Source of the DNA: a virus
Virus record (IMG/VR): IMGVR_UViG_3300032931_000315
Coordinates: 1-23,914 of that record
Reading direction: 5' to 3' (one strand)
Length of the DNA: 23,914 nucleotides
Shown here: positions 1 to 21,089 of the stretch, in pieces
Layout of the letters: each line of letters begins with the position of its first letter
Numbering within the stretch: position 1 is the stretch's first letter
The notes under the pieces: model-generated
Databases searched by the model: none
The model's input: only the letters and a program-made list of their open reading frames with translations
What the model was told of the DNA's origin: nothing
Position numbers and translations under genes: made by a program

Positions 1-1785
1 CGCTATCGCTGAGGCGAGCTCGGAAGCGATTTGACGCTTATTGGCTCGAAGCCATTGATTCGTGTTGGCGGCGTCGATGGCGCTGACGTTGAACTGGATG
101 ATCACCGGCACCGGAGACGGCGATGAGATTTCGCTGTTGGAATTGCGACCCGGCCGGCTGATGACTTCGTCATCCTGGGCAATAATCGCTGTTTCGCCGG
201 GCCGAAGATCGTGGAATCGCGGTGCGTTCTCGAAGATGGAGCTATCGACCCACCGACGCTCGCTGATATCCCCGATTCGCCCGCCGACGTGTGCTACAGT
301 TGCCGGCGTTGCTGGATTCAAAATAGAACCAGCGAAACTTGTGACTGCCGTTTCGAGAGGTTTCGTTATAAAGGCTTTCCACATAGCCATCTCTATGGTC
401 CGACCCAAAGACAAAAATGCCTGCTCAGTAGTTTTGGCCTCGAACCGCATATCCTCGAACATCTTGCCGAATCCCTGGCCAATCGTTTGGGCCATATCCG
501 CCAAAGTTTCAGCCTTTTCGAGCCGATCCAGTTCCATCCGAAAGGACGCCGTCGCCGCAATCGCCTGCTGAGTGTTGGCCCCATATCTCGCCGCCGCTTC
601 GGCCTGGAAATCCACCAGCATCTTTGCCTGCTGGCGAGGCTCGTTAAGCCGACCGGTCAGGGCAATCTCTTCCTGTACCTGCCGCCGCAATGCCTCCATG
701 CGCTTATCGGCGGTTTTCGCTTCTACTTCCTGAGATATCTCCGACAGTTTGCCCTGATATTCCCGCTCAGCCTGTCCCCTCATTACGTCGAGATTGGGTA
801 GAATCATTCTCTTTGCTTCGAGGTCGGCAATTTGGCTTTCTATCTCGGCTGTGGATTTCGGGGCTCTTCCCATCGAGCCGAAACCGCCGAAGGCCATGCC
901 TCTCGGAGTTTTGGCTAATTTTTCCAACCCGGCAATCTGCTGGTCTATGGCGGCGTTGTATTTCTTGATCGCCTCAACTTCGATGCCGAGGGCGTCAATC
1001 TCTTTGAGTCTGTCTTCGTAACCGAATTGAGCCTGGAGATCAGCGGCTCCTTCTTTACCCGCCGCCTGCAAGGCCAGTGACCGCTCCAGGCTTTCTCGGA
1101 CCTTCTCCATCCCCTTGTAGAGATCATTGGATTTAGCCGCTATTTCCTGGGCGGCCGCCAAGCCGCTCAATTCGTGGGCCAGGCCTTCAGCGCTCTTGGC
1201 CAGGCGGTTGATGACGGGTAACCCGGAAAGAAAGGCGTCGAACATGCTTTCGCCGGTCCGCTGGGCCTTGAGCATGGCTGTCGCTGTGTCAGTTATTGAG
1301 TTGATCGCATAGGTATAAACACCCAGTCTAAAAACGGACTTGGCGAGTGCCATTGTTTTGTTGACCGATTGAGCGCCGTATTGCTCCATGATCTTCGACC
1401 GCTCCGCCGTTTCGGTCCTATTGATCAGGGTCAGCATAGACTCATTCTTCTGCCACGTGACGCGGAGGTTTGAAAAATAGTCGCCATGCTGTTTGAGGGC
1501 GGTCTCCAGACCGGTATGCGTCGCGGCGAAGAGCCGGTCCTGCAGGTTCCCGGCCGTTTCGAATTGGGCCTTGACCTGAGTGAGGGCGCTGGTATCGAAG
1601 CCGGCGAATTGGAACTGCCCCGCTATCTTCTGCTGCATGGCGGTCTGGGCTTTATCAATCTCCAGGGCCATAGCGCCGACGTCGGACCGGATCCTCCCGA
1701 TGTCCTGTTTGAACGAAGCGATTCCCTCGGCCGCCTTGTTGCGGGCGAGGAGCTCCAGAACGATTCTGCGGGTCAAGTCGGCCAT
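1..1785 (-). CDS. Tail tape measure protein, C-terminus cut by window edge
   Basis: A stop-free frame runs from ATG at 1785 to the left edge, giving 595 codons with the 3' end missing. The product is rich in alanine, glutamate, lysine and glutamine, and long helical stretches predominate. A glycine-rich insert (MAFGGFGSMGR) lies near the middle. The visible end has the pattern PRFHDLRPGETAIIAQDDEV, which resembles the C-terminal segment of lambda gpH-like tape measure proteins. Such proteins set tail length and act during DNA ejection. At roughly 0.15 nm per residue, 595 residues would give a tail of about 90 nm or slightly more (inference). The start codon has no clear ribosome binding site; the leader is repeat sequence. 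Unusually, the gene is about 6.8 kb downstream of the chaperone gene, which normally precedes it directly. A minor tail protein of another type is the alternative. Confidence 0.8.
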   Translation of the reverse strand, partial: MADLTRRIVLELLARNKAAEGIASFKQDIGRIRSDVGAMALEIDKAQTAMQQKIAGQFQFAGFDTSALTQVKAQFETAGNLQDRLFAATHTGLETALKQHGDYFSNLRVTWQKNESMLTLINRTETAERSKIMEQYGAQSVNKTMALAKSVFRLGVYTYAINSITDTATAMLKAQRTGESMFDAFLSGLPVINRLAKSAEGLAHELSGLAAAQEIAAKSNDLYKGMEKVRESLERSLALQAAGKEGAADLQAQFGYEDRLKEIDALGIEVEAIKKYNAAIDQQIAGLEKLAKTPRGMAFGGFGSMGRAPKSTAEIESQIADLEAKRMILPNLDVMRGQAEREYQGKLSEISQEVEAKTADKRMEALRRQVQEEIALTGRLNEPRQQAKMLVDFQAEAAARYGANTQQAIAATASFRMELDRLEKAETLADMAQTIGQGFGKMFEDMRFEAKTTEQAFLSLGRTIEMAMWKAFITKPLETAVTSFAGSILNPATPATVAHVGGRIGDISERRWVDSSIFENAPRFHDLRPGETAIIAQDDEVISRPGRNSNSEISSPSPVPVIIQFNVSAIDAANTNQWLRANKRQIASELASAIA

Positions 1786-1793
1786 AAGTTTTA

Positions 1794-1857
1794 GCCACGA
1801 AAAGGCACAAGATTCGCAAAATAATTCTGTGCTTTTTGAGCTTCTTTGCGGCTATCC
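1794..1857. repeat. Dispersed repeat, copy A (gene junction)
   Basis: This AT-rich stretch between the tail-terminator paralogue and the tape measure gene is nearly identical over about 60 bases to 2388-2450. Shared phrases are AAAAGGCACAAGATTC, CAAAATAATT and TTTGAGCTTCTTTGCGG. It occupies almost the whole spacer and forms the leader of the tape measure gene. Confidence 0.85.
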
Positions 1858-1867
1858 ATTTTCTGTT

Positions 1868-2377
1868 TCATAAACAATATTTCGTTACGACCGTGACTTC
1901 GGCCACTTCGAATCCCGTGCCCGGCAGGAACCGGACCGTGGGACAGTCGATCGTCAAGGCGAGGCCGTCGCAGGCCAGGCCGCCGACGTTGCCGGCCAGA
2001 ACTAATCGACGAATCGTCTCGGCGATCCGGCTGAGCACCGTATCGACGGATGTTAATTCGGGCAGGCTGCGAATGACGCCGTACAATTTGAAGATCGCCG
2101 TTACAAACCGGTTCGGGTCCGTCGTCTCGGTCTTGACCCGCTCTTCCACGCCGCAGAGAAAAACGTCCGCATGAAGAAAGTGCGAGTCGGCATGATCGTT
2201 GATATCGGGCCGAACGATCCGCAGTGTCAGCGTCTCATCGGGATCCTTCTGGCCATCGAGGGCGTTAGCGATCCAGTCGGCGATCCCGCTCAGCGGCGCC
2301 GGCCAGAACTGCTGAGGCCAGAAGCCCTCAGGAAAGAAGTCCTGCGGAAAGAACGTGTTGTCAAATTCATTTGCCAT
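1868..2377 (-). CDS. Second tail-terminator-like protein (gpU-position paralogue)
   Basis: This 169-residue protein is a paralogue of the product of 9820-10293. Both share an IADWIANALDG-type start, a TLTLR..RP segment, YG.IR.LP, a segment like IRRLVLAGN.GG.AC.GLA, and IDCP near the C-terminus. The other copy sits where lambda-like phages encode tail completion/terminator proteins, so a role in closing the tail or joining another ring is inferred. This copy has an extra N-terminal stretch at residues 9-28 made of four pentapeptides of the form F(F/W)Pxx. It lies between the fibre-like block and the tape measure gene. No strong ribosome binding site precedes the ATG. Sequence divergence suggests an old duplication or separate acquisition and not a recent copy. 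Confidence 0.6.
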   Translation of the reverse strand: MANEFDNTFFPQDFFPEGFWPQQFWPAPLSGIADWIANALDGQKDPDETLTLRIVRPDINDHADSHFLHADVFLCGVEERVKTETTDPNRFVTAIFKLYGVIRSLPELTSVDTVLSRIAETIRRLVLAGNVGGLACDGLALTIDCPTVRFLPGTGFEVAEVTVVTKYCL

Positions 2378-2387
2378 TTTTTAGATA

Positions 2388-2485
2388 GCCACTAAAAGGC
2401 ACAAGATTCACAAAATAATTATGTGTTTTTTGAGCTTCTTTGCGGCCATTGACTTTGTGTTTATTCGTGTTCATTCGTGGTTAAT
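2388..2485. repeat. Dispersed repeats, copy B plus GTGTTTATTCGTG-type unit
   Basis: Bases 2388-2450 repeat copy A at 1794-1857. Bases about 2454-2485 are a second unit containing GTGTTTATTCGTGTTCATTC followed by GTGGTTAAT, also present at 10336-10360 and 11175-11203. The TAA stop of the 380-residue gene (2481-2483) is part of the second unit. Confidence 0.85.
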
Positions 2486-3623
2486 TTCCATCCCTCGTCG
2501 TCACTGCCGTGCGGTTGCCTTTGCTATCGACCGTGACTTTCAGCCGGTCCTTCGTATCTCCGATGTCCCGGAACGTGATACTTGTCGTTCCTCCGCCCGA
2601 GCTCTTGCCCGTCATGACGCTCAGGAACAATCGCAACGCCTGGCGGAGCGTCACCGTGCCTTCGACCACCTCATCATGGACCGCGTCGGCGATGGCCGCG
2701 TTATCGACCGTGATAGAGGCAAAACCCACGTCCATTTCCGCCTTCGTCGGCGGATCGTAAGTCGCCAGTGCCGCCGCGACGGCCGCTTCAACCTGGGCGG
2801 AGGATAGATCGTTTTGATCGTTGATCAATGCGTCCGTGATGATATGCAGCGACGCCGCGGTGCCCGCCGGGTCCGGCACGACCAGGGCCGTAATCTGGTT
2901 CGGCAGCGTGGTCCCGGTGTCTTCGAGTATGGCATCAATGAGCAGATCGAGCCTGCCGCCGTTCGTCCAGTCGGTTTGAAGCTCGTTCGTATCGGCCAAA
3001 ACCAAAGTTAGATTCGGGTCCAACTGCTGCACTTCACCGCCGAAGCTGGCCTCGATGGTATAGGTGGCCATCAGGGCGTTCCAGATAGCCGCAGCGTGTT
3101 CGGCGTCGGTATCGTAGGCTGAGGTATCAGCCAGAATCGCCGTGAAGTTCGGGTCCCATTCCTGCGAGTATGAGACCAGGGTATTGAGGTCCGTCGAGTT
3201 GGAGTCGATTTCGGCCCGGATTTCTTCTTTGGTCGGCATATCTGAGAAGTTGGCCGGCGTCCAGATCGTGCCCGACCAATTGCCGTATTCCTGCCAGATA
3301 GCCGGGTCGGTATCCGCCGGGGAGCCGCCCGCCTGCTGGTGACTTACGATGGTGTAGTAGCCCGCCGCGATATTGGTGTCCATTGTGCCGACGAACATTC
3401 CGCCGCTCTTATTCGTCAGGGCAATGTCATAGTCGGCGGCCGTCCGTGCCCCCGTGCCCCACGCCTCAAACACCGAGCCTACCGGATACCAGACTTGACC
3501 GCTGGCGTTTCGTATCACGCCAAAGCACGTCGTGGCCCCGGCGTTGAAAGAGCGAATCTCGTTAGCCCCGAATGCTGGCCGCAAAAATGCACAAAAAGCA
3601 CAAAAAATCAAAAATCGTTTCAT
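2481..3623 (-). CDS. Phage fibre/baseplate-type protein with signal peptide
   Basis: The 380-residue product begins with a short basic end, a hydrophobic core (FLIFCAFCAFL) and a likely signal peptidase site after AFG, so export by Sec is predicted. The body has a beta-rich N-terminal domain, two similar segments (DPNFTAILADTSAYDTD and DPNLTLVLADTNELQTD), and a C-terminal module with LRQALRLFLSV, TGKSSGGG, FRDIGDTKDR and GNRTAVT. I recognise that C-terminal pattern as common in siphophage tail-fibre or receptor-binding proteins. The start overlaps the upstream stop by one base (TAATG), showing translational coupling. The signal peptide sits oddly with a virion role because tail parts assemble in the cytoplasm. 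The first codons resemble the repeat family of copies A and B. The virion role is inferred from the C-terminal module and position. Confidence 0.65.
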   Translation of the reverse strand: MKRFLIFCAFCAFLRPAFGANEIRSFNAGATTCFGVIRNASGQVWYPVGSVFEAWGTGARTAADYDIALTNKSGGMFVGTMDTNIAAGYYTIVSHQQAGGSPADTDPAIWQEYGNWSGTIWTPANFSDMPTKEEIRAEIDSNSTDLNTLVSYSQEWDPNFTAILADTSAYDTDAEHAAAIWNALMATYTIEASFGGEVQQLDPNLTLVLADTNELQTDWTNGGRLDLLIDAILEDTGTTLPNQITALVVPDPAGTAASLHIITDALINDQNDLSSAQVEAAVAAALATYDPPTKAEMDVGFASITVDNAAIADAVHDEVVEGTVTLRQALRLFLSVMTGKSSGGGTTSITFRDIGDTKDRLKVTVDSKGNRTAVTTRDGN

Positions 3624-5326
3624 TAGAAGTTCCCCATATAGACGGCCGCACCGCCGCCGCCCACCGCCGCTGCGTTGTCATCCTGATCCACACCGATATT
3701 CATCATATAGCCCCCAGTGACGCCTTCGTTGGCTCCGATTTGCATACCCGCGTCAAGACAGGGCGAGCCTGCCTGCAAGGTAAAATCCCCGGCGGCAGGG
3801 TTGGTCAAAAGTGGGTCGGCTGTAATATCGTTCGGGCCTTTGGAAACCAGATTCACGTCTGTAGTGTTATTCCAACAATTAAAGTCCCAGAGGTTGATAG
3901 GAGTCGCAGTAGTCCAGGAGGCCCCTGTCGTGCAACTGTCGATGATGTTATTGATGAAAACCAATAGAGATGCTGTTGTTCCTAAGATACCTGTTGTGCA
4001 ATTATAAATTGTACAGTTGAGGAGATAAATCTCGTTACTGCCGGCAACAGACACGCCTGTTGTACAGGTATCGGCAATACACGAATTTATACGAACCGCC
4101 GTACTCGTACTCATCCCATATCCGGTTACACTATCATGCGCGTAACATCCAATAAGACAAATGTTGTCGTTTACAATGAATGCAGTTCCGTTCGTGCTAA
4201 TCCCCTCGCATAAAAAGGCTTTGGAATTATTTCCCAGATTAAACGCAGTGTAAGCTGAAGCCGAAGTATTCTGCGATTTACAGTTGACTACAACCGAAAG
4301 CACGAAGGACACTCCGCTTGTTTGGGCAGACGTAAATCGCAGATTCTTAACTATTGAATAATATCCAAAAGACATTATACGTGTCGAGCAGGCAAACAAA
4401 GGCCGGTCCGTTCCGACGGCCGTATCATTGCGGGCGGCGGTGTATCCGATCCATTTAATAGGCAAAACTACCGTGCCATTTAAGGCTTGTACAATATTTT
4501 CGCCGGGCGTATATGTTCCTGCCGCTACATGAACCGTGTTGCCCGCAACCATCGCCTCGGTAAAATCATCATCAAGCGTTCCACCGATGAGAAAAGCCCC
4601 GCCAACCGCCCCGACTCCCACTGACATATTTCCTACGCTTCCACATGCCCGGTCAACCGTAACGGTATTGCCATTCGTGTAGGCCGTGATTTCGTACCAT
4701 CCCGCAATGTCGTTTGTCCCGGAGGTGATGTGGATGATATTACCCACCATTAACGCTGTGAATCCGCCCGTCACACTCGTCAGCGTCAACCACCCGGACG
4801 CCGATGTTGCGGCCAAGTCAGTCAGACTCAACTGAGCCGCCGCCTGCTGCGTGTAATCGTAGCCTCCGCCATTGCCTATCTGTACGAAACCAGTATTCTT
4901 TGTGTCCGGGTCTGCACCAGCGTCTAAACGGACATAGACGGTCGAATATCCGAGAGTATCGTTATCGCCCCAGTCCCACTGTCCGGCGGTCAGACTGCCC
5001 AGCGTGCCATTGCTGTCCAGATTGAACGTGCCGTCCGTCGTGGCACACTTGGCTTCAGTCAAAGAAGGATTGCCGCCCGCCGCTGTCTGACAGTAATACT
5101 CGTTCGTCCCTGAACCGGAGGCCGTCCATTTATACGTTGCACTGACCAAAGACAGCCATCGAAAACCGCCGCCGTTCGTCTGTGCCCCGCCGGTCCGAAC
5201 TTCCCAAATTGTATTGGCGTTCAGTTCGGCTCGAACCGAACCACAGAGTAGGCAAAGAACCAAACCGCAGATGAACGCGGATAGACGCCGATTTTTGTGT
5301 TGATTCGTGTTCATTTGTCGTTTCAT
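3623..5326 (-). CDS. Beta-helix tailspike-like protein with signal peptide
   Basis: The 567-residue product has a basic N-terminus, a hydrophobic core (residues about 16-30, LSAFICGLVLCLLCG) and an AxA-like cleavage site (SVRA before E). After this come a threonine- and glycine-rich domain and then regularly spaced short strands with asparagine and cysteine ladders (for example SCIADTCTTGV, NCTIYNCTTGI, NNIIDSCTTGA). These indicate a right-handed parallel beta-helix as in tailspikes and pectate-lyase-like proteins. The end includes SPCLDAG and a glycine-rich tail. The ATG at 5326 is one base past the upstream stop and has GGAGAG about eight bases before it, so this start is favoured over the inner ATG four codons on. 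Much of the signal-peptide coding sequence is repeat-derived. No catalytic residues could be assigned. Surface-polysaccharide binding is inferred. Confidence 0.7.
   Translation of the reverse strand: MKRQMNTNQHKNRRLSAFICGLVLCLLCGSVRAELNANTIWEVRTGGAQTNGGGFRWLSLVSATYKWTASGSGTNEYYCQTAAGGNPSLTEAKCATTDGTFNLDSNGTLGSLTAGQWDWGDNDTLGYSTVYVRLDAGADPDTKNTGFVQIGNGGGYDYTQQAAAQLSLTDLAATSASGWLTLTSVTGGFTALMVGNIIHITSGTNDIAGWYEITAYTNGNTVTVDRACGSVGNMSVGVGAVGGAFLIGGTLDDDFTEAMVAGNTVHVAAGTYTPGENIVQALNGTVVLPIKWIGYTAARNDTAVGTDRPLFACSTRIMSFGYYSIVKNLRFTSAQTSGVSFVLSVVVNCKSQNTSASAYTAFNLGNNSKAFLCEGISTNGTAFIVNDNICLIGCYAHDSVTGYGMSTSTAVRINSCIADTCTTGVSVAGSNEIYLLNCTIYNCTTGILGTTASLLVFINNIIDSCTTGASWTTATPINLWDFNCWNNTTDVNLVSKGPNDITADPLLTNPAAGDFTLQAGSPCLDAGMQIGANEGVTGGYMMNIGVDQDDNAAAVGGGGAAVYMGNF
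5240..5322. repeat. Dispersed repeat inside the 5' coding end of the spike gene
   Basis: The plus-strand phrases ACCACAGAG, AAACCGCAGATGAACGCGGAT and GTGTTGATTCGTGTTCATT match, in the same order and orientation, the spacer repeat at 10297-10360. Here the sequence is translated on the minus strand as roughly residues 5-28 of the 567-residue protein, covering the basic N-terminus and hydrophobic core. Confidence 0.75.
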
Positions 5327-5327
5327 T

Positions 5328-7940
5328 TCAACTCTCCGGGATGTAATAGTTGACGATAACGCTCCAAACCGTCAGGGTATCCGTCGGATCAGCGTCGATC
5401 AGGACGTAGAGAATATGCGCCGTAGGAATAACACCGCTGGTCAAATCCGAATTGGCCATGTTTGTCTCATTGGCATTGCCCGTCGTCGTATCCAGAACAT
5501 CGACCAGCACCGGATTCGCACCGGGAAATGCACCGTTGCCCAAGGCATCGCAATAGTACAGATTCGCGTTCAGCTCCGTCGTCGGGTCCGCCTTCGAGCA
5601 GTCCACGTACCACGACGTGATCACGATCCCATTGGGAAACACTGAGGCCCCCCGATCCATATCGAGAAGCTGCCACTCGGCGTCCACGTCCCACGCCCCG
5701 GCCAGGTCTCCGTGAAACTGCATCGAATGGACCAGGGGAACAGATTTTTCAACGCCGTCGTAAACCACCAGCTGCTTATTGGTACTATCGACGGCAATCT
5801 GACCCGCCACACCTAAAGTCACGTCGCCTGCGGTGTTGGCTATCTCGAACGTCGTCGCCCCGCCGAAGTCATAGACGCCCGTGCCACTGTCGCCATTGTT
5901 CAGAAGAAAATCGTCGTCCACGTCGAAATCGGCATCGGTCAGAGTTAAATGATCCCCCGCCGTATAAAGACCATCTGCTGAAATCGTTGCTGTTGACAAT
6001 GTCAGATTCATGGTTGTCGTATCTGATACAGCCAATACCTGTTCTGCACTCAGCGTACCGTTCGCAGCCAATACTACATACTGAGCGTTCGCTGGTGCTT
6101 CGCCGCCCGTTGAGAGCATCTTGAATTGAATCCTGATCTGCCGCCAGCGGGGATCGACCTTGCCGTCGCCTTGCTTGCCGACAATTCGCAACCAGACATC
6201 CGCGTTCGCCCCTGCTACCAATTCCGCCCAGGAGCCGACTTTGACACCCGTACCCGCACCCACGGCACATTCTCCAGCCGCCGCCGTGTCCGCTGCCTGG
6301 TACGTCACGTTGTCCGTCGAATACTGAAGATTGAAATCTGCCGTAGAGTATCCAGCCAACGTCTGATTGACAACGATCCTGTAGTGCGTACCGTAGGTCA
6401 AATCAAGTTTGAGCCTGGAACTGGTACTGCCGAAGAGTTCCGTCACCGCCGCCGGCATGTTCGTCCACGCCGCATCGACCGTACCGGAACTATAGACATC
6501 GACATCGCTGACGGCCGCATTGACCGCGCCTCCGCCGCCTGTTACCGTTTGAGCCATCCACTGAGAGGTTGCCGCATCCCAGGCCAAAGCCTGATCGTCA
6601 CTGGGCGTCGGTGCGTTCACATCAGCGATATCATCCAAGACCGATCCTGTTTTGTTCACCGCTATCCAGTCCACTTTATCCGCCGTGGAAATCGTATCGA
6701 GTTTACTGTCGGCTATCGAACCTGCCAGCATGGCGTTCGTGACACCAAGTGCTTTGACTTGCAGCGCATTGGTTGCAATCTCGATAGACGAACCATCGAC
6801 GTTGACCTCGAGTTCGTTGCCCGTCAGTCCTATGGCCCCTGCCGCCAAAAGGTCGGCCCTGATGTCTGCCCCAGAGAGTTCGACACCCAAAGACGCAGTA
6901 TAAGTCCCTGAGTTTGTCAGGTATGTATAGACCAAGTCATTCGTATTCAGGACGGGGTTGAGTGTAATCTGAACAAACTGATAGCCGTCATTGGCCGTTC
7001 CCTCCGTGATGAAGGTATAAGTGCCTTCCTGTACCTCCGCTGAAGCGTCGTAATCCGTCGCCCTCGTGGGTGCGCCCGATGCGTTCACGGTGTAGATGCC
7101 ATTGGTCGTCGCGTCGGCCTGGTCTTTGATGAGAATCCTATTGCCGGTAGCCAACTCAACGCCGTCGATGGTATCGCCATTCTCGAAGTCGGTAGCCAAA
7201 GTCGCTGCTGCCGTGGTCGCTATCCGGCAGGCCAGCTTGACTTCCAGGCTCTGAGCGAACGCATCGACGTAGGCTTTGTGGACCGCCTGATATGCCGTCG
7301 TGGGCGAAGAAGAGGGCAGAATCGGAAAAGAACTGAACGTTTTGATTCCCGCCACAGTCTCATTGCCGGTCAAAGCAACGGCCCCGGCCTGAGCCGCCGT
7401 GACGCTATGAGGATTCGCCGTCGAGGCCAAATGGGTGTCAATCACCGTGTGGGCATTCGAGCCTACACCAGAGAGATCGCTGTGAGCCAGAACCGCATCG
7501 ACGTAATCGCTTCCGTTGGCCCTGAGAACCTTTCCGTCGGTATAGGGTGTCCCGCTTAATGTCACGTCAAGTAAAGCATCCAGTGTCGTAGCTCCGCCCC
7601 CTCCGCCCGTCAAGTCTGTCTCAAGGCCGGCATCGTCAAGAATATAAAACCGGCTTGTTCCGGCGCCGTCGTCTTTGGCATAAACTCGAAGGATGTTCGG
7701 ATCGGGCGTGGCCGGCGTCGCAATCTCGCTATATTGCCCATAGCCAGTATGAAGAACATTCACAAACCCCGGCGAATCGCCCGTGCCAAGTCCAAGAGTA
7801 GTCTGTGCCGTTCCCTGAGTCTCATCATTCAAGAGCGTCCTGATGAAAATGGAAATGTAGGGCAGGATGGCCGAACCTTGCGCCCAGACCACCCCGGCAA
7901 GAACCGCCACCAGAACGAGAATCAGAAGGATTCGTTTCAT
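5328..7940 (-). CDS. Large phage tail-fibre-like protein with signal peptide
   Basis: About 870 residues. The N-terminus (MKRILLILVLVAVLAGVVWA before Q) is a clear Sec-type signal peptide. Next come phage fibre-type motifs: TANPHSVTAAQAGAVALTGN, ETVAGIKTFSSFPILPSSSP, AYQAVHKAYVDAFAQSLEVK, and a segment like ATGNRILIKDQADATTNGIY followed by PTRATDYD. These are known from tail-fibre shafts. Alanine/threonine/glycine-rich repeats follow, then a C-terminal beta-rich domain. The ATG at 7940 is preferred over the in-frame TTG at 7946, as TTG has no ribosome binding site; the ATG also lacks a strong one. It is followed after one base by the spike gene, so they form one operon. A receptor-binding or shaft role is inferred. 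The signal peptide is unexpected for a cytoplasmically assembled tail. Confidence 0.75.
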   Translation of the reverse strand: MKRILLILVLVAVLAGVVWAQGSAILPYISIFIRTLLNDETQGTAQTTLGLGTGDSPGFVNVLHTGYGQYSEIATPATPDPNILRVYAKDDGAGTSRFYILDDAGLETDLTGGGGGATTLDALLDVTLSGTPYTDGKVLRANGSDYVDAVLAHSDLSGVGSNAHTVIDTHLASTANPHSVTAAQAGAVALTGNETVAGIKTFSSFPILPSSSPTTAYQAVHKAYVDAFAQSLEVKLACRIATTAAATLATDFENGDTIDGVELATGNRILIKDQADATTNGIYTVNASGAPTRATDYDASAEVQEGTYTFITEGTANDGYQFVQITLNPVLNTNDLVYTYLTNSGTYTASLGVELSGADIRADLLAAGAIGLTGNELEVNVDGSSIEIATNALQVKALGVTNAMLAGSIADSKLDTISTADKVDWIAVNKTGSVLDDIADVNAPTPSDDQALAWDAATSQWMAQTVTGGGGAVNAAVSDVDVYSSGTVDAAWTNMPAAVTELFGSTSSRLKLDLTYGTHYRIVVNQTLAGYSTADFNLQYSTDNVTYQAADTAAAGECAVGAGTGVKVGSWAELVAGANADVWLRIVGKQGDGKVDPRWRQIRIQFKMLSTGGEAPANAQYVVLAANGTLSAEQVLAVSDTTTMNLTLSTATISADGLYTAGDHLTLTDADFDVDDDFLLNNGDSGTGVYDFGGATTFEIANTAGDVTLGVAGQIAVDSTNKQLVVYDGVEKSVPLVHSMQFHGDLAGAWDVDAEWQLLDMDRGASVFPNGIVITSWYVDCSKADPTTELNANLYYCDALGNGAFPGANPVLVDVLDTTTGNANETNMANSDLTSGVIPTAHILYVLIDADPTDTLTVWSVIVNYYIPES

Positions 7941-7953
7941 TTTCAAATTTTTA

Positions 7954-8060: not shown

Positions 8061-8573
8061 TTAATCGAGACCCATCGCGATGACGTCCACGTCCATTGTG
8101 GAGCTGCCCGTACCGTCGTGTTCGAGCTTGAGATTCTTGTTCGTCGTAGTGACCAGGCCCGCCGCCGACGGATCCGTCCAGAGGAATACTCCACCAGGTT
8201 TAACGACGACAATATCGGAAGTGTTTGCGATGATTCCTAAATCAGTGGCGGCCCCACCGAACAATTTCAGTGACGCATCACTGGATTTGTTCTTGATGTA
8301 AAGGAACTTCAATGCCGCCATCGTCAGGGCGCGATTGAAGATATCCAGCAATGACCCCGAGGCGTACAAATCCAACGTCGTATTAGCGCCGTCGGCCAGG
8401 GTGATCGTATCGGCGTAAATGATATTGACGGCCCCGGCGCCGGTACCATAAGCCCAGTCGACGTTGCCCACGGCGACGGGTACCTGGAACTCACTCAGGT
8501 CGCCGGCCAGAAAGGCCCTCAAATCAATCACAACCCCGGCCTGGCCGCCTAATCTTGTAGATCCTACAGACAT
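8061..8573 (-). CDS. Small virion-type protein of unknown role
   Basis: A 170-residue beta-rich protein with no cysteine and no membrane segment. Its pattern, with LYIKNKSSDASLKLFG, then IVVVKPGGVFLWTDPSA and an LKLEHDG end, resembles small beta-barrel proteins often encoded next to phage fibre genes. I do not know an assigned function. The ATG at 8573 has AAGGAG seven bases upstream. That ribosome binding site touches the stop codon of the frameshifted chaperone product (8585-8587), so expression is tied to the chaperone operon. A tail or fibre accessory role is inferred from position only. Confidence 0.55.
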   Translation of the reverse strand: MSVGSTRLGGQAGVVIDLRAFLAGDLSEFQVPVAVGNVDWAYGTGAGAVNIIYADTITLADGANTTLDLYASGSLLDIFNRALTMAALKFLYIKNKSSDASLKLFGGAATDLGIIANTSDIVVVKPGGVFLWTDPSAAGLVTTTNKNLKLEHDGTGSSTMDVDVIAMGLD

Positions 8574-9719: not shown

Positions 9720-9737
9720 GATTTACTCCTTTTGCAA

Positions 9738-9806
9738 TTGACTATTGACTATTGACTATTGATTATTCGTCGCTCGTCTATCGTCTATCGTCCCCGCCTC
9801 GGCGGG
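9738..9806. repeat. Heptamer tandem repeats plus CCCGCC-TC-GGCGGG palindrome
   Basis: Four seven-base units (TTGACTA three times, then TTGATTA) occupy 9738-9765. CGTCTAT is repeated at 9775-9788, and a perfect palindrome CCCGCCTCGGCGGG lies at 9793-9806. The block fills the spacer between the tail-terminator-like and tail tube genes. Related copies lie at 20512-20562 (in TerS) and at 22707-22757. Confidence 0.85.
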
Positions 9807-9819
9807 CAAGCCTCGTCTC

Positions 9820-10293
9820 TCACGCCTGCGTATAACCATCCTTCAGCGCGGTTCGATACGTTACGCTCACCGTGACGTCCGCCACCAGACCGCCGGCCAT
9901 GATCTCAAAGTCCACCTTGGGACAATCGATGCTCACCGCCAGGCCGCCACACGCCGTGCCGGCTGAATTGCCGGCCAGGAGCAAACTGCGGATCGTCTTG
10001 ATCATCCTCGATACGACCGTGTCGGCGTCGGCGACGGTATCCGCCGGCAGCTCCCGGATGATGCCGTAGCAGGTCAAGGCCGCTTTCTCCGTCCGGGATG
10101 AGACCGTGGTGCGGCTCTCGGTCGCAAGGCCCTCGGCCTCGATCACGACATCGCCGTGCTGGAAGTCCTCGACGGTCCAATCCAAGATCTTCGGCCGGAC
10201 GGCCCGCAGCGTGAGCGTCGCATCGGCGTCCTGCTTACCGTCCAGGGCGGCGGCGATCCATTGAGCAATTTGTTCGTGAATCGTTTCAGTCAT
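9820..10293 (-). CDS. Tail-terminator/completion-like protein (gpU position)
   Basis: A 157-residue protein lying between the gpZ-like gene and the tail tube gene, which is where lambda encodes gpU (tail terminator). It has an N-terminal helix (IHEQIAQWIAAALDG), beta strands, and a helix around LLLAGNSAGTACGGLAV. The product of 1868-2377 is a clear paralogue. In the family role the protein caps the tail tube and joins it to the head. The assignment rests on position, size and fold pattern; I see no decisive motif. No strong ribosome binding site precedes the ATG; the leader is repeat sequence. Confidence 0.55.
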   Translation of the reverse strand: MTETIHEQIAQWIAAALDGKQDADATLTLRAVRPKILDWTVEDFQHGDVVIEAEGLATESRTTVSSRTEKAALTCYGIIRELPADTVADADTVVSRMIKTIRSLLLAGNSAGTACGGLAVSIDCPKVDFEIMAGGLVADVTVSVTYRTALKDGYTQA

Positions 10294-10296
10294 TTG

Positions 10297-10360
10297 AAAC
10301 CGCAGATAAACGCTGATGAACGCAGATTGTTTTGTGTTTATTCGTGTTCATTCGTGGTTA
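10297..10360. repeat. Dispersed repeat between gpZ-like and gpU-like genes
   Basis: Contains AAACCGCAGATAAACGCTGA, GAACGCAGATT, GTGTTTATTCGTGTTCATTC and GTGGTTA. The final TTA is the complement of the gpZ-like stop codon. It is the non-coding counterpart of the repeat translated in the spike gene at 5240-5322. Confidence 0.85.
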
Positions 10361-11080
10361 AGCTCCCTTCGCCCAGTTCCGCAGCTCGACGCCGATCTGA
10401 TCGTTGATGAGTGCGTTGAGGTCCACACTGACCTCCGCCGGCACGGCGTCCTTGAGGCCGGGCTCATTGACGATCACCCGCCAGACCGAGGGACCGAACT
10501 TCTCACTGATTCCCAGCCGCGCCGCACCTTTGCGTTTGAAGACGCCGCGGTGACTCTTCTTTGCGATCTCGGAGGCCGTCAGACCTTCGGCCTCCCATTC
10601 GGCCCGGCGTTCGGCGGAACTCGTGCGCAAGTCACTGCCGGCCCCGCCTTTTTTGCCGACGGCCGTCGCGATGAACGCCCCTTCGATCAATTGTTGAGTG
10701 CGGCTAATGCGATAACGCACGCCGAGACCTGAACTGAGTTTCGAGGCCACGCCCCGGGCGATCTTCTTTTGGACGGACTTGGGCAAATTCGTCTGCTTGG
10801 CCTCGAATACGGCCAGGGGAAACCGCACCGGGTCCGCCGATAACGCGGCGGAGATATTCGCGGCGGTCGCTTTTCTCTTGCTCATCGACTTGCCGACGAT
10901 GGTCGGCTTGAGCGTTGTCGCTGAGCTGATGGCGTTCTTGTACTTCGTAAACGCCTGGTCGATACCGCGATTGAAACTGCGCACCAGGACGCGATTGAAC
11001 CCGCCGGGGATCGCCCGCAGAACGTTCTCGGCCTCCTTGAGGCTCGCTTCATCAATTTTGATTTGTACCGCTAAAGACAT
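10358..11080 (-). CDS. Minor tail protein Z-like (gpZ/HK97 gp10-like)
   Basis: The 240-residue basic protein starts with helix-forming sequence (LKEAENVLRAIPGGFNRVLV, then RSFNRGIDQAFTKYKNAIS), a pattern I associate with the prophage minor tail protein Z family. A segment near residues 145-190 contains GRRAEWEAEG-like charged helices and SHRGVFKR. In lambda gpZ helps connect tail to head during tail completion. Position, between head-completion and tail-terminator-like genes, agrees. The ATG is directly preceded by repeat sequence ending CTGTGGCTT and lacks a Shine-Dalgarno match. Confidence 0.7.
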   Translation of the reverse strand: MSLAVQIKIDEASLKEAENVLRAIPGGFNRVLVRSFNRGIDQAFTKYKNAISSATTLKPTIVGKSMSKRKATAANISAALSADPVRFPLAVFEAKQTNLPKSVQKKIARGVASKLSSGLGVRYRISRTQQLIEGAFIATAVGKKGGAGSDLRTSSAERRAEWEAEGLTASEIAKKSHRGVFKRKGAARLGISEKFGPSVWRVIVNEPGLKDAVPAEVSVDLNALINDQIGVELRNWAKGA

Positions 11081-11205
11081 AAGCCACAGAGTTTTCAGCC
11101 ACAGAGAGCACTACTTCGACAGGCTCAGTATGGTGAGCGAAGTCGAACCAAGAGGACACAGAGAATTAAATATTTGTGTTTATTCGTGTTCATTCGTGGT
11201 TAATT
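11081..11205. repeat. Composite dispersed repeat with TTCGAC hairpin
   Basis: The spacer consists of GCCACAGAG units, a stem-loop (TTCGAC 11115-11120 with GTCGAA 11142-11147; inner GCTCA 11123-11127 with TGAGC 11134-11138), GGACACAGAG, and the GTGTTTATTCGTGTTCATTC unit. The hairpin unit is of a type widely dispersed in bacterial chromosomes. No gene is seen in it. Confidence 0.85.
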
Positions 11206-11207
11206 AT

Positions 11208-11552
11208 TTAGTGACATTCGTAGGTCACCCAAACGCCGTTTGCTTTCACGATCCGGGCCAGCTGCATGACTCGTGCCGCCGCCCCCGGACGCGGCGGGAC
11301 GCTGATTGTCTGATTATCGCCGAACTCCGAGGCGGCGATGCCGAGCACCGCATCGTTGGCGACCTTAATCTTGACTTGTGGACTTCGATGCCGAACGATA
11401 GGCGAGACCGCGGCGTCATCCTCGACGTATCGAACAATCGCCGTGATCACCCGGTTAAGCGTCCCGGGCTGAAACGTCACCGGCTGGCCGAACGCCGTCA
11501 GAAACGCCGCCCGGCCGGCCGTCATCCAGGATGTCTCGAAAACCGTCACCAT
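11208..11552 (-). CDS. Putative head-completion/connector protein
   Basis: The 114-residue protein follows the major capsid gene by 11 bases (ATG at 11552; the longer frame would overlap the capsid gene and has no ribosome binding site). It begins MVTVFETSWMTAGRAAFLTA and contains AFGQPVTFQPG and ISVPPRPGAAARVMQLARIV. The position between major capsid and gpZ-like genes matches lambda gpFII and other small head-tail joining proteins. The recognisable similarity is weak, so the function is inferred from order and size. Confidence 0.5.
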   Translation of the reverse strand: MVTVFETSWMTAGRAAFLTAFGQPVTFQPGTLNRVITAIVRYVEDDAAVSPIVRHRSPQVKIKVANDAVLGIAASEFGDNQTISVPPRPGAAARVMQLARIVKANGVWVTYECH

Positions 11553-12570: not shown

Positions 12571-12615
12571 AAAAAAAGCGGCTGCAAGGAGGTTGGGCTC
12601 CCAACAGCCGCTTTT
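12571..12615 (-). terminator. Hairpin 1: terminator/attenuator before major capsid gene
   Basis: Arms of 11 bases, AAAAGCGGCTG (12574-12584) and CAGCCGCTTTT (12605-12615), enclose a 20-base loop. Read leftwards the stem is followed by seven T, giving an intrinsic terminator form. The loop carries TTGGG-CT-CCCAA and, on the minus strand, CCTCCTT. It is nearly identical to 16922-16966. Confidence 0.75.
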
Positions 12616-12686
12616 GTTTGCCTTGAGTTACTCGCCGCCTGGCCTGGCCGCGAGTAAACCCGCATATTGACTTTCTTTGTTCGTAC

Positions 12687-13811
12687 TTACGCCGTCTGCT
12701 GTGCCACGCGAATCCAGTCCAGCGTTACCGTGTAATCGTCGGCGTGGGCGGCTTTGATCGCGATGGTCGGCACGAGAACGTCCGCTGCAGGGAAATCGGC
12801 GACCGCAATATCGACCGCTGAGATTGCCGTCCCGGTAGCCACTCCATTGAGATACATCTGGATCGTGGCTCCATCGTAATACAAACCCAGGGTCAGGTAA
12901 GTATCCGCAACCGGGGTCGCAAAATCGTCGTCGTGCTCGTTCTGGGTCTGGGCCGCCACGTCATAGACGACGTCGAACTTATCTCCATCCGCTTCCTTCA
13001 ATTGGAAACCGATAGCGCCGACGTCCGCCAAGGTCCCGGCATCGACAATCGTATCCCCGGCCAGGACAACGTCACCGGCCATCAGGCCGATAAATACGCC
13101 GGCCTTCGCGTCGGTTAAAACGCTGACTTTCAACCTGGCTTCCAGAGCCCAGGCGGCCCCACCACTGGACGTTATCGGGCAGGAGGGGAACTGGACCTCA
13201 GCGGCTTCATTGTCCGCCGTGGTGAACAAACTCAAGGCGCCTTCACCCGCCGCCCCGGGAATGACCCGAATGACGGAGCTGGTATCGGCAAAGGCTTCGC
13301 TCGGCTCATTCTCACCGTGGGTGAAATCCCGCTCGAGCAGAGAGCCGGCGAATGGATTCCTTCGCATCTCGACCAGGTTAAAATTGCCCCAGATGGCGGC
13401 CGTCGGCAAAGCCGTAACCGCTCGGCTGCGGGCCGAATCGGCGGCGGCCTCCGTGCCGACGTATTTCGGCAGAACCTCGATAATGTCCCCATTAGCCCCC
13501 GATGCCTCAAGGGCCGTACCGATCTGTTCGCCGTTTACCGTCGCGGAAATCTTGCCGCTGGCTGCCGCATAGACTGCAGCACCCGCGCTGATGACGCCGC
13601 TGGCCATCATCTTTGACGTGCCTTCGACGTCGAGGCGGATACAGGCGTGGGCATCTTCGGAATAATCCACAACCGCCTGGACGGTGCCACAACCGGTCTC
13701 GCCGGCGCCTGCATAAACAACCGTTGAGCCGGATATCTTGACCCTGCGGAACGCGACGAGGTCCTCGCCGGCAATCAGGGTGATCTCCGGACCGTTTACT
13801 TGCTTACTCAT
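12687..13811 (-). CDS. Capsid decoration protein with concanavalin-like domain
   Basis: 374 residues. About residues 1-115 (ITLIAGEDLVAFRRVKISGS ... GTVQAVVDYSE ... ISAGAAVYAAASGKISAT) match the DUF2190/phage cement protein pattern, small proteins that stabilise capsids from outside. Residues about 150-374 look like a LamG/concanavalin-type beta-sandwich (WALEARLKVSVLTDAKAGVF, then LGLYYDGATIQMYLNGV, ending LDWIRV). Gene order (protease, decoration, capsid) matches lambda C-D-E. AGGAG precedes the ATG. The fusion would display a carbohydrate-binding-type domain on the head; that role is inferred. The boundary between the domains is approximate. Confidence 0.7.
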   Translation of the reverse strand: MSKQVNGPEITLIAGEDLVAFRRVKISGSTVVYAGAGETGCGTVQAVVDYSEDAHACIRLDVEGTSKMMASGVISAGAAVYAAASGKISATVNGEQIGTALEASGANGDIIEVLPKYVGTEAAADSARSRAVTALPTAAIWGNFNLVEMRRNPFAGSLLERDFTHGENEPSEAFADTSSVIRVIPGAAGEGALSLFTTADNEAAEVQFPSCPITSSGGAAWALEARLKVSVLTDAKAGVFIGLMAGDVVLAGDTIVDAGTLADVGAIGFQLKEADGDKFDVVYDVAAQTQNEHDDDFATPVADTYLTLGLYYDGATIQMYLNGVATGTAISAVDIAVADFPAADVLVPTIAIKAAHADDYTVTLDWIRVAQQTA

Positions 13812-13897
13812 AGTTTATCTCCTGAATTAGAGCTTTTTCATACGTTTACGTTGACCCTGCAGCTTCTTGCGAAGCAAGAGCAAGGTGACAGAAACTC

Positions 13898-14311
13898 TTA
13901 AAGGCCCAGGGAGGCTTTATACGCCTTATGCAGCTCCGGGCGCTCGCGGGCCAATTTCTTGTACGCCAGACCCAGTGGAATCTTTTCGTCTTTGGACATC
14001 TGCTTGCCCAATGTTACGAAATTCTCTCCGTCATTCGCGGAGTCCCCCGATTCCAACGGGGCCGCACCTGCATTTGCTTTGGCGTTCAGCTTCTTTTGCA
14101 GCACATCTGAATAGGCCGCCTTAGCCTCGATCAGACTGGATCCCGCCTCGAATTGCGCGACGGCAAAAGGCAAATCGTCCGGGAAGGCCGCTTTGAGATC
14201 GGACAATCGCTTTCTGGATTCGGCGGCCGCTTCCTGCCGGGCCGTCACGCCAGCCTGCGCGATCTGTTGCTGAACGTCGGCGTTTTGGTTTTGGTCGTTT
14301 GTGCTACCCAT
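13898..14311 (-). CDS. Nested scaffold protein (Nu3-like), internal start
   Basis: An in-frame ATG at residue 271 of the protease (14309-14311) has AAGGAG at 14320-14325, eight bases upstream, as good as any start in the window. It would give 137 residues (MGSTNDQNQNADVQQQ...), helical and without the protease domain. In lambda the scaffold Nu3 is made from an internal start in gene C in just this way. The separate product is inferred; the start signal is seen directly. Confidence 0.7.
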   Translation of the reverse strand: MGSTNDQNQNADVQQQIAQAGVTARQEAAAESRKRLSDLKAAFPDDLPFAVAQFEAGSSLIEAKAAYSDVLQKKLNAKANAGAAPLESGDSANDGENFVTLGKQMSKDEKIPLGLAYKKLARERPELHKAYKASLGL

Positions 14312-15121
14312 AACAGTATCTCCTTTTGTAATGATAGTATTGTTGGCGACAACCTGGTCGATCAAATTCAACTCCTTCGCCGCTTCGGCGATCCACAGTC
14401 GGCCGGTTGCTAATTCGGCCGCCTTGCTTTTGTCCATGTTCCGGCCGGCGGCGACCGAGGCAACGAACTGGCCGGCCAGGCCGTTGATGACTTCCTTCTC
14501 GGCGGCGATCTGCGAGGGCGTGATCGTGTCCATGCCCATGCCTTTGTGCTCTCCGCTGCGGATGACGACCGCCTTGATCCCCGCCTTTTCCTCCCACCCG
14601 GTCCAATCGTAATAGACCGCATAGACACCGATGGATCCGATCTCGGCGGTCCTGCCGGCGGCGATACTCTGTGCCTGGGAGGCGAGCCAATAGGCGCCGC
14701 TGGCGGCCAGGTCCTCTACGTAAGCCGTCACGGGCTTGCTCTGGCGGGCATTATAGATTGCATCGGAGGCCGTCAGAACGCCGGCCACCATGCCGCCCGG
14801 CGAAGAAACGGTCAACTGGATGGCTGAGACCTTGGGTTCGGCCAGAGCCTCGGCGATCTGTGAGGCGATTTCGTCATAGCCGGTGGCATTGAAACCCCAC
14901 AATCTCACCCAGCCGGGTACGGTCTTGAGCAGCATCCCGCTGATGGCGATATGAGCGACGCCGTCCCTGACGTCCAACATTTTTTTCGGCATGGCGACGG
15001 CAATAGAGGCCACTAAGGGACCTACCGATATCTGCGACAGTTTCTCAAAAAACAATTTCAGGGCCGTCGGCTCCATGACCCACTTCTGCGACTGCATCTC
15101 GGCCAGAATGGCTTCATTCAT
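13898..15121 (-). CDS. Head maturation protease, S49 family (gpC-like) with scaffold domain
   Basis: 407 residues from ATG 15121, chosen because AGGAG lies seven bases upstream (15129-15133); a longer frame to 15166 lacks this. The N-terminal part is an SppA-like S49 serine protease. Ser141 in LAASGAYWLAS is the likely nucleophile and Lys193 in SGEHKGMG the likely base. SSPGGMVAG is the oxyanion-side loop. After residue about 270 comes a glutamine/alanine/lysine-rich helical domain typical of scaffolds. It overlaps the portal stop by eight bases. It cleaves capsid, portal or scaffold parts during head maturation, as lambda gpC does. Confidence 0.85.
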   Translation of the reverse strand: MNEAILAEMQSQKWVMEPTALKLFFEKLSQISVGPLVASIAVAMPKKMLDVRDGVAHIAISGMLLKTVPGWVRLWGFNATGYDEIASQIAEALAEPKVSAIQLTVSSPGGMVAGVLTASDAIYNARQSKPVTAYVEDLAASGAYWLASQAQSIAAGRTAEIGSIGVYAVYYDWTGWEEKAGIKAVVIRSGEHKGMGMDTITPSQIAAEKEVINGLAGQFVASVAAGRNMDKSKAAELATGRLWIAEAAKELNLIDQVVANNTIITKGDTVMGSTNDQNQNADVQQQIAQAGVTARQEAAAESRKRLSDLKAAFPDDLPFAVAQFEAGSSLIEAKAAYSDVLQKKLNAKANAGAAPLESGDSANDGENFVTLGKQMSKDEKIPLGLAYKKLARERPELHKAYKASLGL

Positions 15122-16921: not shown

Positions 16922-16966
16922 AAAAAAAGCGGCTGAAAGGAGGTTGGGCTCCCAACAGCCGCTTTT
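16922..16966 (-). terminator. Hairpin 2: terminator/attenuator before gpW-portal block
   Basis: Arms AAAAGCGGCTG (16925-16935) and CAGCCGCTTTT (16956-16966), with seven T following in the leftward direction. The loop differs from hairpin 1 at one base. Only 21 bases separate it from the gpW-like ATG, too few for a separate promoter. Confidence 0.75.
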
Positions 16967-17077
16967 CTTATCCAAGTTTTTTCCCGCCCGTCAGCGGAAT
17001 TTCAGTCTCTATCTTTAAGGTTTGTCGACCGCAAAACAATAAAAATGACAGAGAAAAATCATTTTGAACCGAAAATT

Positions 17078-17355: not shown

Positions 17356-19371
17356 TTAATATCGCGTTCTAATCGGTTTGGGATTTATTTCTTTGCCTAA
17401 CTTTTCCTCTTGTTTTCTTCGGTGGACGATGTTCACGTAGTCCACGTCCTGCAGGTGGAAGACACCGGCCAGCTCGGCGGCCAGATCGCAATAATTGTTG
17501 GCGTCCAGGAGGTGATTCTCGCGGAAGCCCGGTTTCTTGACCCATACAATGATCTCGCGGCCGCTGCGGGAGCGCTTGACTAATTGGGCCTCGCTGGCTA
17601 ACTGGCGGGCCAGCGATTCGGGCAGATCGCTCGGCAGGTGCATGTAACCGGGACCGGGTCCTTTCTCCTTGTCAAAAAGCGACTGCCAGAACCGATCCTT
17701 GGCCATATCGACGTTCAGATCGAATCGCCGCAGGGCCTTGCCCACGACGTCGCGGGCCTTGTAAAAATTGTTGTGCATCCTATCCCGGCCGTAACCCATC
17801 ACCGGGATCACGGCGCCTTCAGGAAAGCGCAGGCAGAAATCATAGACGACGGTCGATTCTTCATCGCGGTCATCCTGCTGGTACCGGCAATCGATGGCCG
17901 CCCGCGTTGCATAGTACCGGACCGATTCATCCACGGCCGAGACCCATTCGCCCCGCACGTATTTTTCGACGATCTCCCAATTCTCAGCCCGGCCTGTGTG
18001 GCCCGTCTCAATCCGCCCGGCCCACAGCAGCCATTGCTCGTTGCGGAAGCCATAGCCCTTCGTCACGGCCCATACGCAGTCGGTCTGAACGTCGATGCCG
18101 TGGCAAATCATCTGAACACGGCGCGGCACGAGACGTTTCTCCATTGCATAATCCGCCACGTGGGTTTTGAGATGCGTCAGGCTCGTCGCCCGCTCCTTCT
18201 GCTCCCACGCCCGGGCGTGCTGGATATTCGTGAAGGATCTGTAGGCCGAGATGTCCCCGGCTTCCCGCCGTTTGATCGCTGCCACAAACTCATGCGCCAG
18301 TTGATCGACCGTCGTGAACATCGGATCGACCAGGACGGCCGGGATCGTCAGGGCCTTGTACTCGGCATCGTTCCATTGCCCGGCGATCTCGCCATCCGGG
18401 CCTATCGAGTGGCCCTCGGGGCAGGCCCGGCAGCCGGAGATGGCGGCCTTGCGCTCCAATTCGCTCCAGCGGCTGTTGCAATGGGGGCACACGTAGCGGG
18501 CCGTTCGCCGTTTGCCCTTGCCCGGCTCGTAATATTCCACCTCGAAAAACTTATCGTCTTTGTCCTTGTCGATAATCACGTTCTCGAACATGGCCTCGTG
18601 ATACTTGCCGCAGTCGGGACAGACGATATGAATCGACCATTTCTGGCACGCCTCGAAATTCTTATCGGCGATGTCACCCTTATTGCGGGGCCGCGTAATG
18701 AAAAACCGCTTACTGATCGACTCGTAGGTCCGCGTTCCGGCACGCAGGGTCTTGATCGTATCGGAGTCTTCCGTCTGCTCCACGGTCCACAGAACCACCT
18801 CATCGCCACCCAAATACCGGATCGCATCATCTTCGAGCGTGATGGCGCTCGTCGGCCAGCCTAACAGTAATTGCATATTGTCGAGGTCCGTCGGCTCTCC
18901 GATGAGCAGGTTGCGGATGTCCCCGCCCAAGTGACGCATGATGCGCGGTGACTTCTCGAACGCCGGCTTGAGTTTCTTGATCCGTTTTTTGGCCGTGCCT
19001 TCGCTGGGCAGAACGATCTTCATCGGTCCCGGGACCACGTCGATCACGTAGCCCATCCATCCGCCTAATATCGTTGACTTGCCGGTCTGCCGGGCCGCAT
19101 AGACCCAGAGCTCCCGCGTCGTCAGATCGCACAGCCATTCGATCACCGGCCGCCAGAACGGCGTTCGATCCAGCCGCCACGGGCCCGTGAGCCGCGAGGA
19201 TTTCTCCGACAGAACATAATTGCTCTGCATCCAGTCGAGCATGTGCTGCTTCCGACGGGGCGCCAGGACCTCCAAAACCTCCGCAGGCATCGGCATGGGA
19301 CGGAAGTAGGCGAGCGCTTCGGCTCGCCGATTTATGATTTCTGATTGTCGATTTTCGATTGCCTGGATCAT
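17356..19371 (-). CDS. Terminase large subunit (GpA family)
   Basis: 671 residues from ATG 19371, whose ATGA overlaps the stop of the 45-residue ORF; an earlier in-frame ATG at 19455 is less likely. Motifs: Walker A ARQTGKST (about residues 93-100); Walker B-like LGGDEVVLW; a cysteine cluster (IVCPDCGKYHE ... YVCPHCNSRW ... CRACPEG) characteristic of GpA; the nuclease motif GIDVQTDCVWAV; and a C-terminal region with conserved LLDANNYCDLAAELAG. It translocates DNA into the prohead and cuts it; GpA enzymes usually cut at cos sites. The codons for residues 3-16 are repeat-like sequence. Confidence 0.92.
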   Translation of the reverse strand: MIQAIENRQSEIINRRAEALAYFRPMPMPAEVLEVLAPRRKQHMLDWMQSNYVLSEKSSRLTGPWRLDRTPFWRPVIEWLCDLTTRELWVYAARQTGKSTILGGWMGYVIDVVPGPMKIVLPSEGTAKKRIKKLKPAFEKSPRIMRHLGGDIRNLLIGEPTDLDNMQLLLGWPTSAITLEDDAIRYLGGDEVVLWTVEQTEDSDTIKTLRAGTRTYESISKRFFITRPRNKGDIADKNFEACQKWSIHIVCPDCGKYHEAMFENVIIDKDKDDKFFEVEYYEPGKGKRRTARYVCPHCNSRWSELERKAAISGCRACPEGHSIGPDGEIAGQWNDAEYKALTIPAVLVDPMFTTVDQLAHEFVAAIKRREAGDISAYRSFTNIQHARAWEQKERATSLTHLKTHVADYAMEKRLVPRRVQMICHGIDVQTDCVWAVTKGYGFRNEQWLLWAGRIETGHTGRAENWEIVEKYVRGEWVSAVDESVRYYATRAAIDCRYQQDDRDEESTVVYDFCLRFPEGAVIPVMGYGRDRMHNNFYKARDVVGKALRRFDLNVDMAKDRFWQSLFDKEKGPGPGYMHLPSDLPESLARQLASEAQLVKRSRSGREIIVWVKKPGFRENHLLDANNYCDLAAELAGVFHLQDVDYVNIVHRRKQEEKLGKEINPKPIRTRY
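19310..19363. repeat. Repeat-like 5' end of TerL coding sequence
   Basis: A GCGAGC-GCTTCG-GCTCGC palindrome (19310-19327) is followed by short reiterated phrases (ATTTATGATTTCTGATT, GTCGATTTTCGATTG) typical of the dispersed spacer repeats. Translation gives the low-information segment AIENRQSEIINRRAEAL of TerL. Confidence 0.6.
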
Positions 19372-19505
19372 TCCGACTTCAACTTTTTGGCTATGAGAGC
19401 CAGATTCGATGTGAAGGTATCCTTTGTGAGACCACCTAAAAGAAAATCTGTGCACATTGACATAATCAATTCTACATGTTTTTTGAATTCTGCATCATCC
19501 ATCAT
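19368..19505 (-). CDS. 45-residue peptide between TerS and TerL
   Basis: ATG 19505 begins one base after the TerS TGA and has AGGT/AGGTGAC close upstream. The stop overlaps the TerL ATG (ATGA). The peptide MMDDAEFKKHVELIMSMCTD... is helical with a K-rich end and no recognisable domain. Tight coupling on both sides supports translation. A second ATG three bases later is equally possible. Function unknown; a terminase-associated factor is inferred only from position. Confidence 0.55.
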   Translation of the reverse strand: MMDDAEFKKHVELIMSMCTDFLLGGLTKDTFTSNLALIAKKLKSE

Positions 19506-20759: not shown

Positions 20760-21089
20760 ATGAAAGCTATCTCGATTCAACAACCTTGGGCGACTCTGAT
20801 ATGTGCCGGCATCAAGCGAGCCGAGGTGCGCACGTGGCAAACGAAGCATCGCGGCGATCTGTTGATCGTCTCCAGTAAATATCCTGTTTATCCGGGACTG
20901 CCCGGGGGGATGGCTCTTTGTATTGTCGAATTGATGGATTGCCAACTTATGACCGAAGCGGACTCGACAGATGCTTGTATCCCCTATCAGCCCGGTTTTT
21001 ATGTTTGGCTTTTGGATAATATTCGGCCCCTTGAAAAATCGTTTCGAGTTCGCGGCCAGCAAAAGTTCTACGATGTACGAGTGAGCTAA
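20760..21089 (+). CDS. ASCH-domain protein
   Basis: 109 residues; the only convincing plus-strand gene. The start MKAISIQQPWATLICAGIKR, then AEVRTWQTKHRGDLLIVSSK, is the ASCH signature: a PUA-related fold that binds RNA or modified nucleic acid. Some members, such as YqfB, hydrolyse N4-acetylcytidine. Key positions seen are Lys19, Glu22, Arg24, Thr25 and Trp26. ATG 20760 is chosen over an upstream in-frame start at 20673, which would add sequence opposite TerS without similarity to the domain. No Shine-Dalgarno is seen, so the mRNA may be leaderless. It converges on the ABC-GNAT gene; the two stop codons overlap (21086-21089). Confidence 0.85.
   Translation: MKAISIQQPWATLICAGIKRAEVRTWQTKHRGDLLIVSSKYPVYPGLPGGMALCIVELMDCQLMTEADSTDACIPYQPGFYVWLLDNIRPLEKSFRVRGQQKFYDVRVS

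Follow-up and report, generated by a model that had tools for sequence, protein, structure and literature searches.

Predicted export signals, two of three built from intergenic repeats, on a fibre-gene cassette in a phage tail operon

We studied three consecutive fibre-type genes in the tail operon of a tailed-phage fragment from IMG/VR, IMGVR_UViG_3300032931_000315, the whole of which (23,914 bases) is referred to here as the window. The genes lie on the minus strand between positions 7940 and 2481, their products of 870, 567 and 380 amino acids (aa) are related in sequence to phage fibre and spike proteins, and each product begins with a predicted export signal. We lean towards reading them as a recruited fibre cassette that was refitted for Sec export by joining signals, two of the three built from repeats, to the natural starts of the protein bodies, in which case the proteins would act outside the cytoplasm. 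More tentatively, this may extend to the clade, whose phages would use intergenic repeats as recurrent raw material for signal peptides and would thereby have converted recruited fibre genes to exported adhesins on several independent occasions.

Export-type signals on adjacent fibre genes

The 870-aa protein opens with the predicted signal MKRILLILVLVAVLAGVVWA (7881..7940, minus strand), followed by QGS, and its DNA gave no repeat match. The signal of the 567-aa protein, MKRQMNTNQHKNRRLSAFICGLVLCLLCGSVRA (5228..5326, minus), is followed by ELN and consists of two intergenic repeats; that of the 380-aa protein, MKRFLIFCAFCAFLRPAFGA (3564..3623, minus), is followed by NEI and comes from one. 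Signals were called by a home-made heuristic rule, which passed through several versions during exploration and was tuned along the way; one version, requiring A at position −1, was written after the signals had been seen. A robustness run covered 15 variants of the rule (five hydrophobicity thresholds by three motif settings), and the finding of a basic N-region with a hydrophobic core was stable across them, whereas virion fibres, assembled in the cytoplasm, are expected to carry no export signal. The original prediction had described these genes as beginning with basic, hydrophobic, AxA-ending Sec-type signals, which our rule confirms, and their bodies as fibre-like, which is fair in view of Pfam and PHROG matches and homologues; it had missed that two of the three signals are made of intergenic repeats.

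By the same rule these three are the only signal-like genes among the 19 coding-strand genes of at least 90 aa in the window. Pooling the fibre-slot genes of the window with those of two relatives, G001 and G665, 6 to 8 of 8 are signal-like, compared to 2 to 4 of the 91 other genes in six clade records (p 7e-7 to 1e-9); with the window excluded, as its genes had prompted the test, the counts are 4 to 5 of 5 and 2 to 4 of 75 (p 5e-5 to 2e-6), and these p values overstate independence because G001 and G665 are relatives. That signals are confined to fibre-slot genes is thus a result robust to the choice of rule. Three signal-like genes lie outside the slot: a probable spanin lipoprotein in G001, a LamG gene in G009, and an open reading frame (ORF) in G008 (13726-14371), which was set aside as apparently antisense to an HNH-like gene.

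The residues at −3 to −1 before the predicted mature proteins are VWA, VRA and FGA, in the order 870, 567 and 380; F at −3 is atypical, and such motifs are frequent by chance. With QGS, ELN and NEI following the cores, none of the three has the lipobox cysteine of an Llp-type lipoprotein. A start-site error was considered and ruled out, since the mature N-termini have no in-frame start codon: in each of the three proteins the stretch from the predicted cleavage site to the conserved body lacks one, the first occurring at residues 37, 60 and 36.

The closest phage with the same gene order, G001 (IMGVR_UViG_3300032053_000240), carries signals on all three counterparts (MNYRLLTILLFCSLVVFVFA, MKFRVFLIFVFCLLCSIVQA and MKQKIFSHELTRIIAKIFLCVICGICGSIQA). 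These differ in sequence from the window's, and one clearly comes from another repeat. The two phages keep the start codon in place but differ in the signal that joins it to the conserved body, and both have the same stop/start overlap before the 380-aa-type gene (TTCTAATG, TTCTGATG). The middle gene of G001 encodes a LamG protein unrelated to the 567-aa one, yet it also ends in VYMGNF. In G665, whose structural genes are mostly 89-99% identical to those of G001 (some 74-75%), two fibre-slot genes have repeat-built signals, one of them of the D3 repeat family on a different spike. A small protein in the fibre slot of G665 (L337 11672-12094) bears a repeat-built signal and, at its C-terminus, a CPYCGGTG motif.

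In a pair of LamG genes involving G009, one has a repeat-built signal and its relative (54% identity over 240 aa) has none; in loci L343 and L344, the conserved tail-region protein p170 has a repeat-built signal in place of its usual MS start, and no signal is seen on the other p170 sequences whose start is covered. Fibre-type genes with signals also occur beyond the clade: two next to each other in G007 and in L028, and a single one in L098. The original prediction held that the proteins are meant for export, and this is supported because the signals differ at the same positions in relatives, the starts are fixed and the signals are confined to fibre-slot genes. The pattern suggests that the three proteins act outside the cell, and action at the host surface would be the most plausible of the options originally offered; an unusual cell plan of the host, which is weakly indicated as planctomycetal, may also play a part.

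Signal-free homologues and intergenic repeats

An unrelated phage, G004, has homologues of the C-terminus of the 870-aa protein (82%), of the 567-aa protein (74%) and of the N-terminus of the 380-aa protein (29%), in the same order and free of signals; they start, respectively, with MSNRLF, MALAANTVWEV and MSDELTH, and the second begins at the predicted cleavage point of the window protein. G005, L083 and L007/L009 likewise have signal-free homologues. Relatives whose proteins begin downstream of the hydrophobic stretch had originally been counted as a case against the signals; such relatives do exist among other phages, but the signals of the window stand, and signal-free relatives together with the repeat origin suggest that the signals were added later. 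In more distant, cassette-free relatives (G659, L345, L350 and others), p170 is directly followed by the tape-measure gene, and the fibre genes are therefore an insertion between otherwise adjacent genes, as in a moron. A moron would have its own promoter and terminator; a count gave 7 promoter-like sites (5.2 expected) and 11 terminator-like sites (6.7 expected). The simplest account would be that the cassette entered first and the signals were gained later; signal gains were counted by inspection, with no tree.

The repeats fall into three families, D1, D2 and D3, which sit in the gaps between window genes. The 567-aa signal is made up of a D1 copy (5294..5329, plus strand) and a D3 copy (5262..5300, plus), and matches an intergenic stretch at 10297-10359 with 84% identity over 63 nucleotides (nt) (E value 7e-12; none of 200 shuffles as good), part of an intergenic D3+D1 copy at 10297..10366 (plus). 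Further D1 copies lie at 11170..11208 (plus) and at 2454..2489 (plus), the latter intergenic except at its end, where it runs into the 3' end of the gene for the 380-aa protein. Two intergenic D2 copies, 2386..2462 and 1792..1868 (both plus), are related to the 380-aa signal, which matches within the window at 1825-1852 and 2419-2448 with 83-86% identity (E 0.003); its best match lies in G658 (36325-36361; E 1e-4, none of 200 shuffles as good).

We compared ten collected signal DNAs with the clade records, using 200 dinucleotide shuffles of each as the control. Seven match repeats at other loci, with no shuffle equalling them, and control gene starts gave orthologue matches only, the exception being the terminase gene, where codons 28-36 hold a repeat. 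The large terminase of the window (17356-19455) has an N-terminal, hydrophilic, repeat-derived stretch (IENRQSEIINRR), and similar ones are present in G001 and G008. A strong hydrophobic core is encoded by 24% of 79 repeat copies in the signal orientation, by 9% in the other orientation and by 5% of random windows, so the repeats favour signals. By eye, and below significance, the G001 fibre signal starts in a heptamer-like run; heptamer tandem repeats (ATTGACT, TCGTCTA, CTGTATC, GGACGAT) occur in or near gene gaps of the window at 9737-9817, 19527-19558 and 20514-20557.

Weighing the explanations

In the mechanism we envisage, fibre-type adhesin genes would have entered the tail operon between p170 and the tape-measure gene, and each body would have been joined at its natural start to an N-terminal signal, taken in two of the three window genes from short intergenic repeats. 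The products would be exported by Sec and cleaved, late in infection or from a prophage. Less securely, the exported proteins might attach to surface targets of the kind that virion fibres recognise, and this binding could mask receptors against superinfection or against the loss of progeny on debris, by comparison with Llp of phage T5.

Several observations weigh against export of a refitted cassette. Behind ordinary gene starts a comparable cleavage motif turns up in 45-64% of cases, a rate that the slot genes exceed at only p = 0.02-0.03, and the predicted cleavage sites were partly picked by eye; that all ten collected signals have A at −1 is no longer counted as strong evidence. Three of the ten signal DNAs (those of two 870-type genes and of the G001 middle gene) have no significant repeat match in the clade records. 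Of the repeat copies that match, 91 in all, 69 read through the frame of the signal without a stop and 22 contain one, so that an open frame is a weak sign of selection. Independent genomes are few; the genomes are related, and the records are fragmentary and metagenomic.

One could suppose instead that repeats at gene starts were merely read into frame, giving neutral extensions that are hydrophobic by chance and do not lead to export. Repeats do lie at many gene junctions, one sits inside the terminase N-terminus, most copies are stop-free, and their hydrophobic-core rate in the signal orientation, set beside that of random windows, lends this idea some weight. We nevertheless think it unlikely, given that signals are restricted to fibre-slot genes and that the 870-type genes and the G001 middle gene have signals at the same positions with no detectable repeat origin. 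It is likewise unlikely, in our judgement, that these are virion fibres whose export precedes their attachment to the particle, which would then take place outside the cytoplasm, upon lysis or later. The location of the genes inside the tail operon, the resemblance of the G004 homologues to ordinary virion fibres and the signal gained by p170, a conserved tail-region gene, in L343 would all agree with such a route, but cassette-free relatives keep an otherwise identical gene order, and we found no report of such assembly in the open-access literature. To our knowledge, no assembly route exists in which fibres join the particle outside the cytoplasm after export. Quite improbable is an arrangement in which the N-termini remain uncleaved and anchor parts of the fibres at the inner membrane while assembly proceeds: a basic N-region and hydrophobic core would indeed insert into the membrane, cleavage is predicted only and its motif is just mildly informative, but the 567-aa core closes with VRA, immediately ahead of the position where the signal-free homologue begins. 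If export of the recruited fibre cassette is the correct explanation, a fibre-type fold encoded in a phage tail operon would not by itself make a protein part of the virion.

Tail operon, host and known systems

The window genes, mainly on the minus strand, comprise an HNH gene, the small and large terminase, portal, S49-type protease, decoration protein, capsid and gpZ-like protein, followed by tail terminator, major tail protein, chaperone, p170, the three fibre-type genes, p169 and a partial tape-measure gene. The 870-aa protein (5328..7940, minus) is encoded by an ORF with matches to PHROG virion/decoration and tail-fibre families and has 68% identity to the G001 fibre; its ATG lies at 7940, and an alternative TTG at 7946 would give 872 aa. 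The 567-aa protein (3623..5326, minus) is of the beta-helix spike type, with DUF5123 and NosD matches slightly under the Pfam cut-off, and the DUF5123, NosD and Beta_helix matches of its G004 homologue are above it. The 380-aa protein (2481..3623, minus) is of a tail-appendage type, with 61% identity to its G001 homologue and a body common to many IMG/VR loci. Among annotated phages, the 567-aa protein has no match and the 380-aa protein one partial match.

Upstream of the cassette, the conserved p170 (phrog_22694; 8061..8573, minus) is signal-free in the window, and its modelled structure is a jelly-roll, with weak matches of low template-modelling score; the model of the 380-aa protein was poor and was set aside. 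Downstream lie p169 (1868..2377, minus), a scan of which gave nothing new, and the partial tape-measure-type gene (1..1785, minus). p169 is a paralogue of the tail terminator, the second such gene in the window lying upstream at 9820-10293. Two near-identical 48-nt hairpins (AAAAAAAGCGGCTG...CAGCCGCTTTT), terminator-like, occupy two gene gaps (12571-12618 and 16922-16969). The product of 21086-22168 resembles an ATPase fused to an acetyltransferase-type domain, and the planctomycetal genome G187 has a homologue (38%) close to a p170-like gene.

The host is probably planctomycetal, although the indication is weak: the best terminase relative in the sampled genomes is in planctomycetal G307 (E 5e-149, ∼40% identity), with none at 1e-40 in the Verrucomicrobiota, Acidobacteriota and Chloroflexota samples and a best value of 4e-29 in Desulfobacterota. 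A terminase scan of genome contigs for the host gave no match, and no signal-bearing fibre cassette was seen in the planctomycetal prophage regions of G307 and G187. The repeats were dropped as a clue to the host, as they occur in many phyla. One repeat, AACCGCAGATRAACGCDGATRRACGC (loci L112-L191), was found in phyla unrelated to one another: cyanobacteria, Methanoperedens-type archaea, Planctomycetota, Acidobacteriota and proteobacteria.

The DNA source of a signal peptide is rarely recognisable; here it is still visible beside signal-free homologues and intergenic copies, which makes the step from repeat to signal testable. Llp of phage T5 is a small exported lipoprotein that masks the receptor. 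The window proteins would share with it export of a phage product and possibly a receptor block, whereas they are large, have no lipobox and have only a putative function. The fibre genes of the G004 type have homologous bodies in the same order, but no signals. In a survey of the target proteins of phage diversity-generating retroelements (PMC6199706), missing signal peptides were taken as support for phage origin; there, as here, phage adhesins are contrasted with surface-displayed bacterial ones, but those phage proteins have no signal peptides and the present ones do. A search of the open-access literature turned up no description of phage tail fibre genes with signals built from repeats. 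A close likeness is YPO1552 of Yersinia pestis, in which a repeat forms part of the signal peptide and whose homologues have unrelated signals (Delihas 2007, PMC2759123). The signal peptide is repeat-derived in both cases, but YPO1552 is a single bacterial chromosomal gene, whereas several repeat families, several phages and fibre-type genes are involved here.
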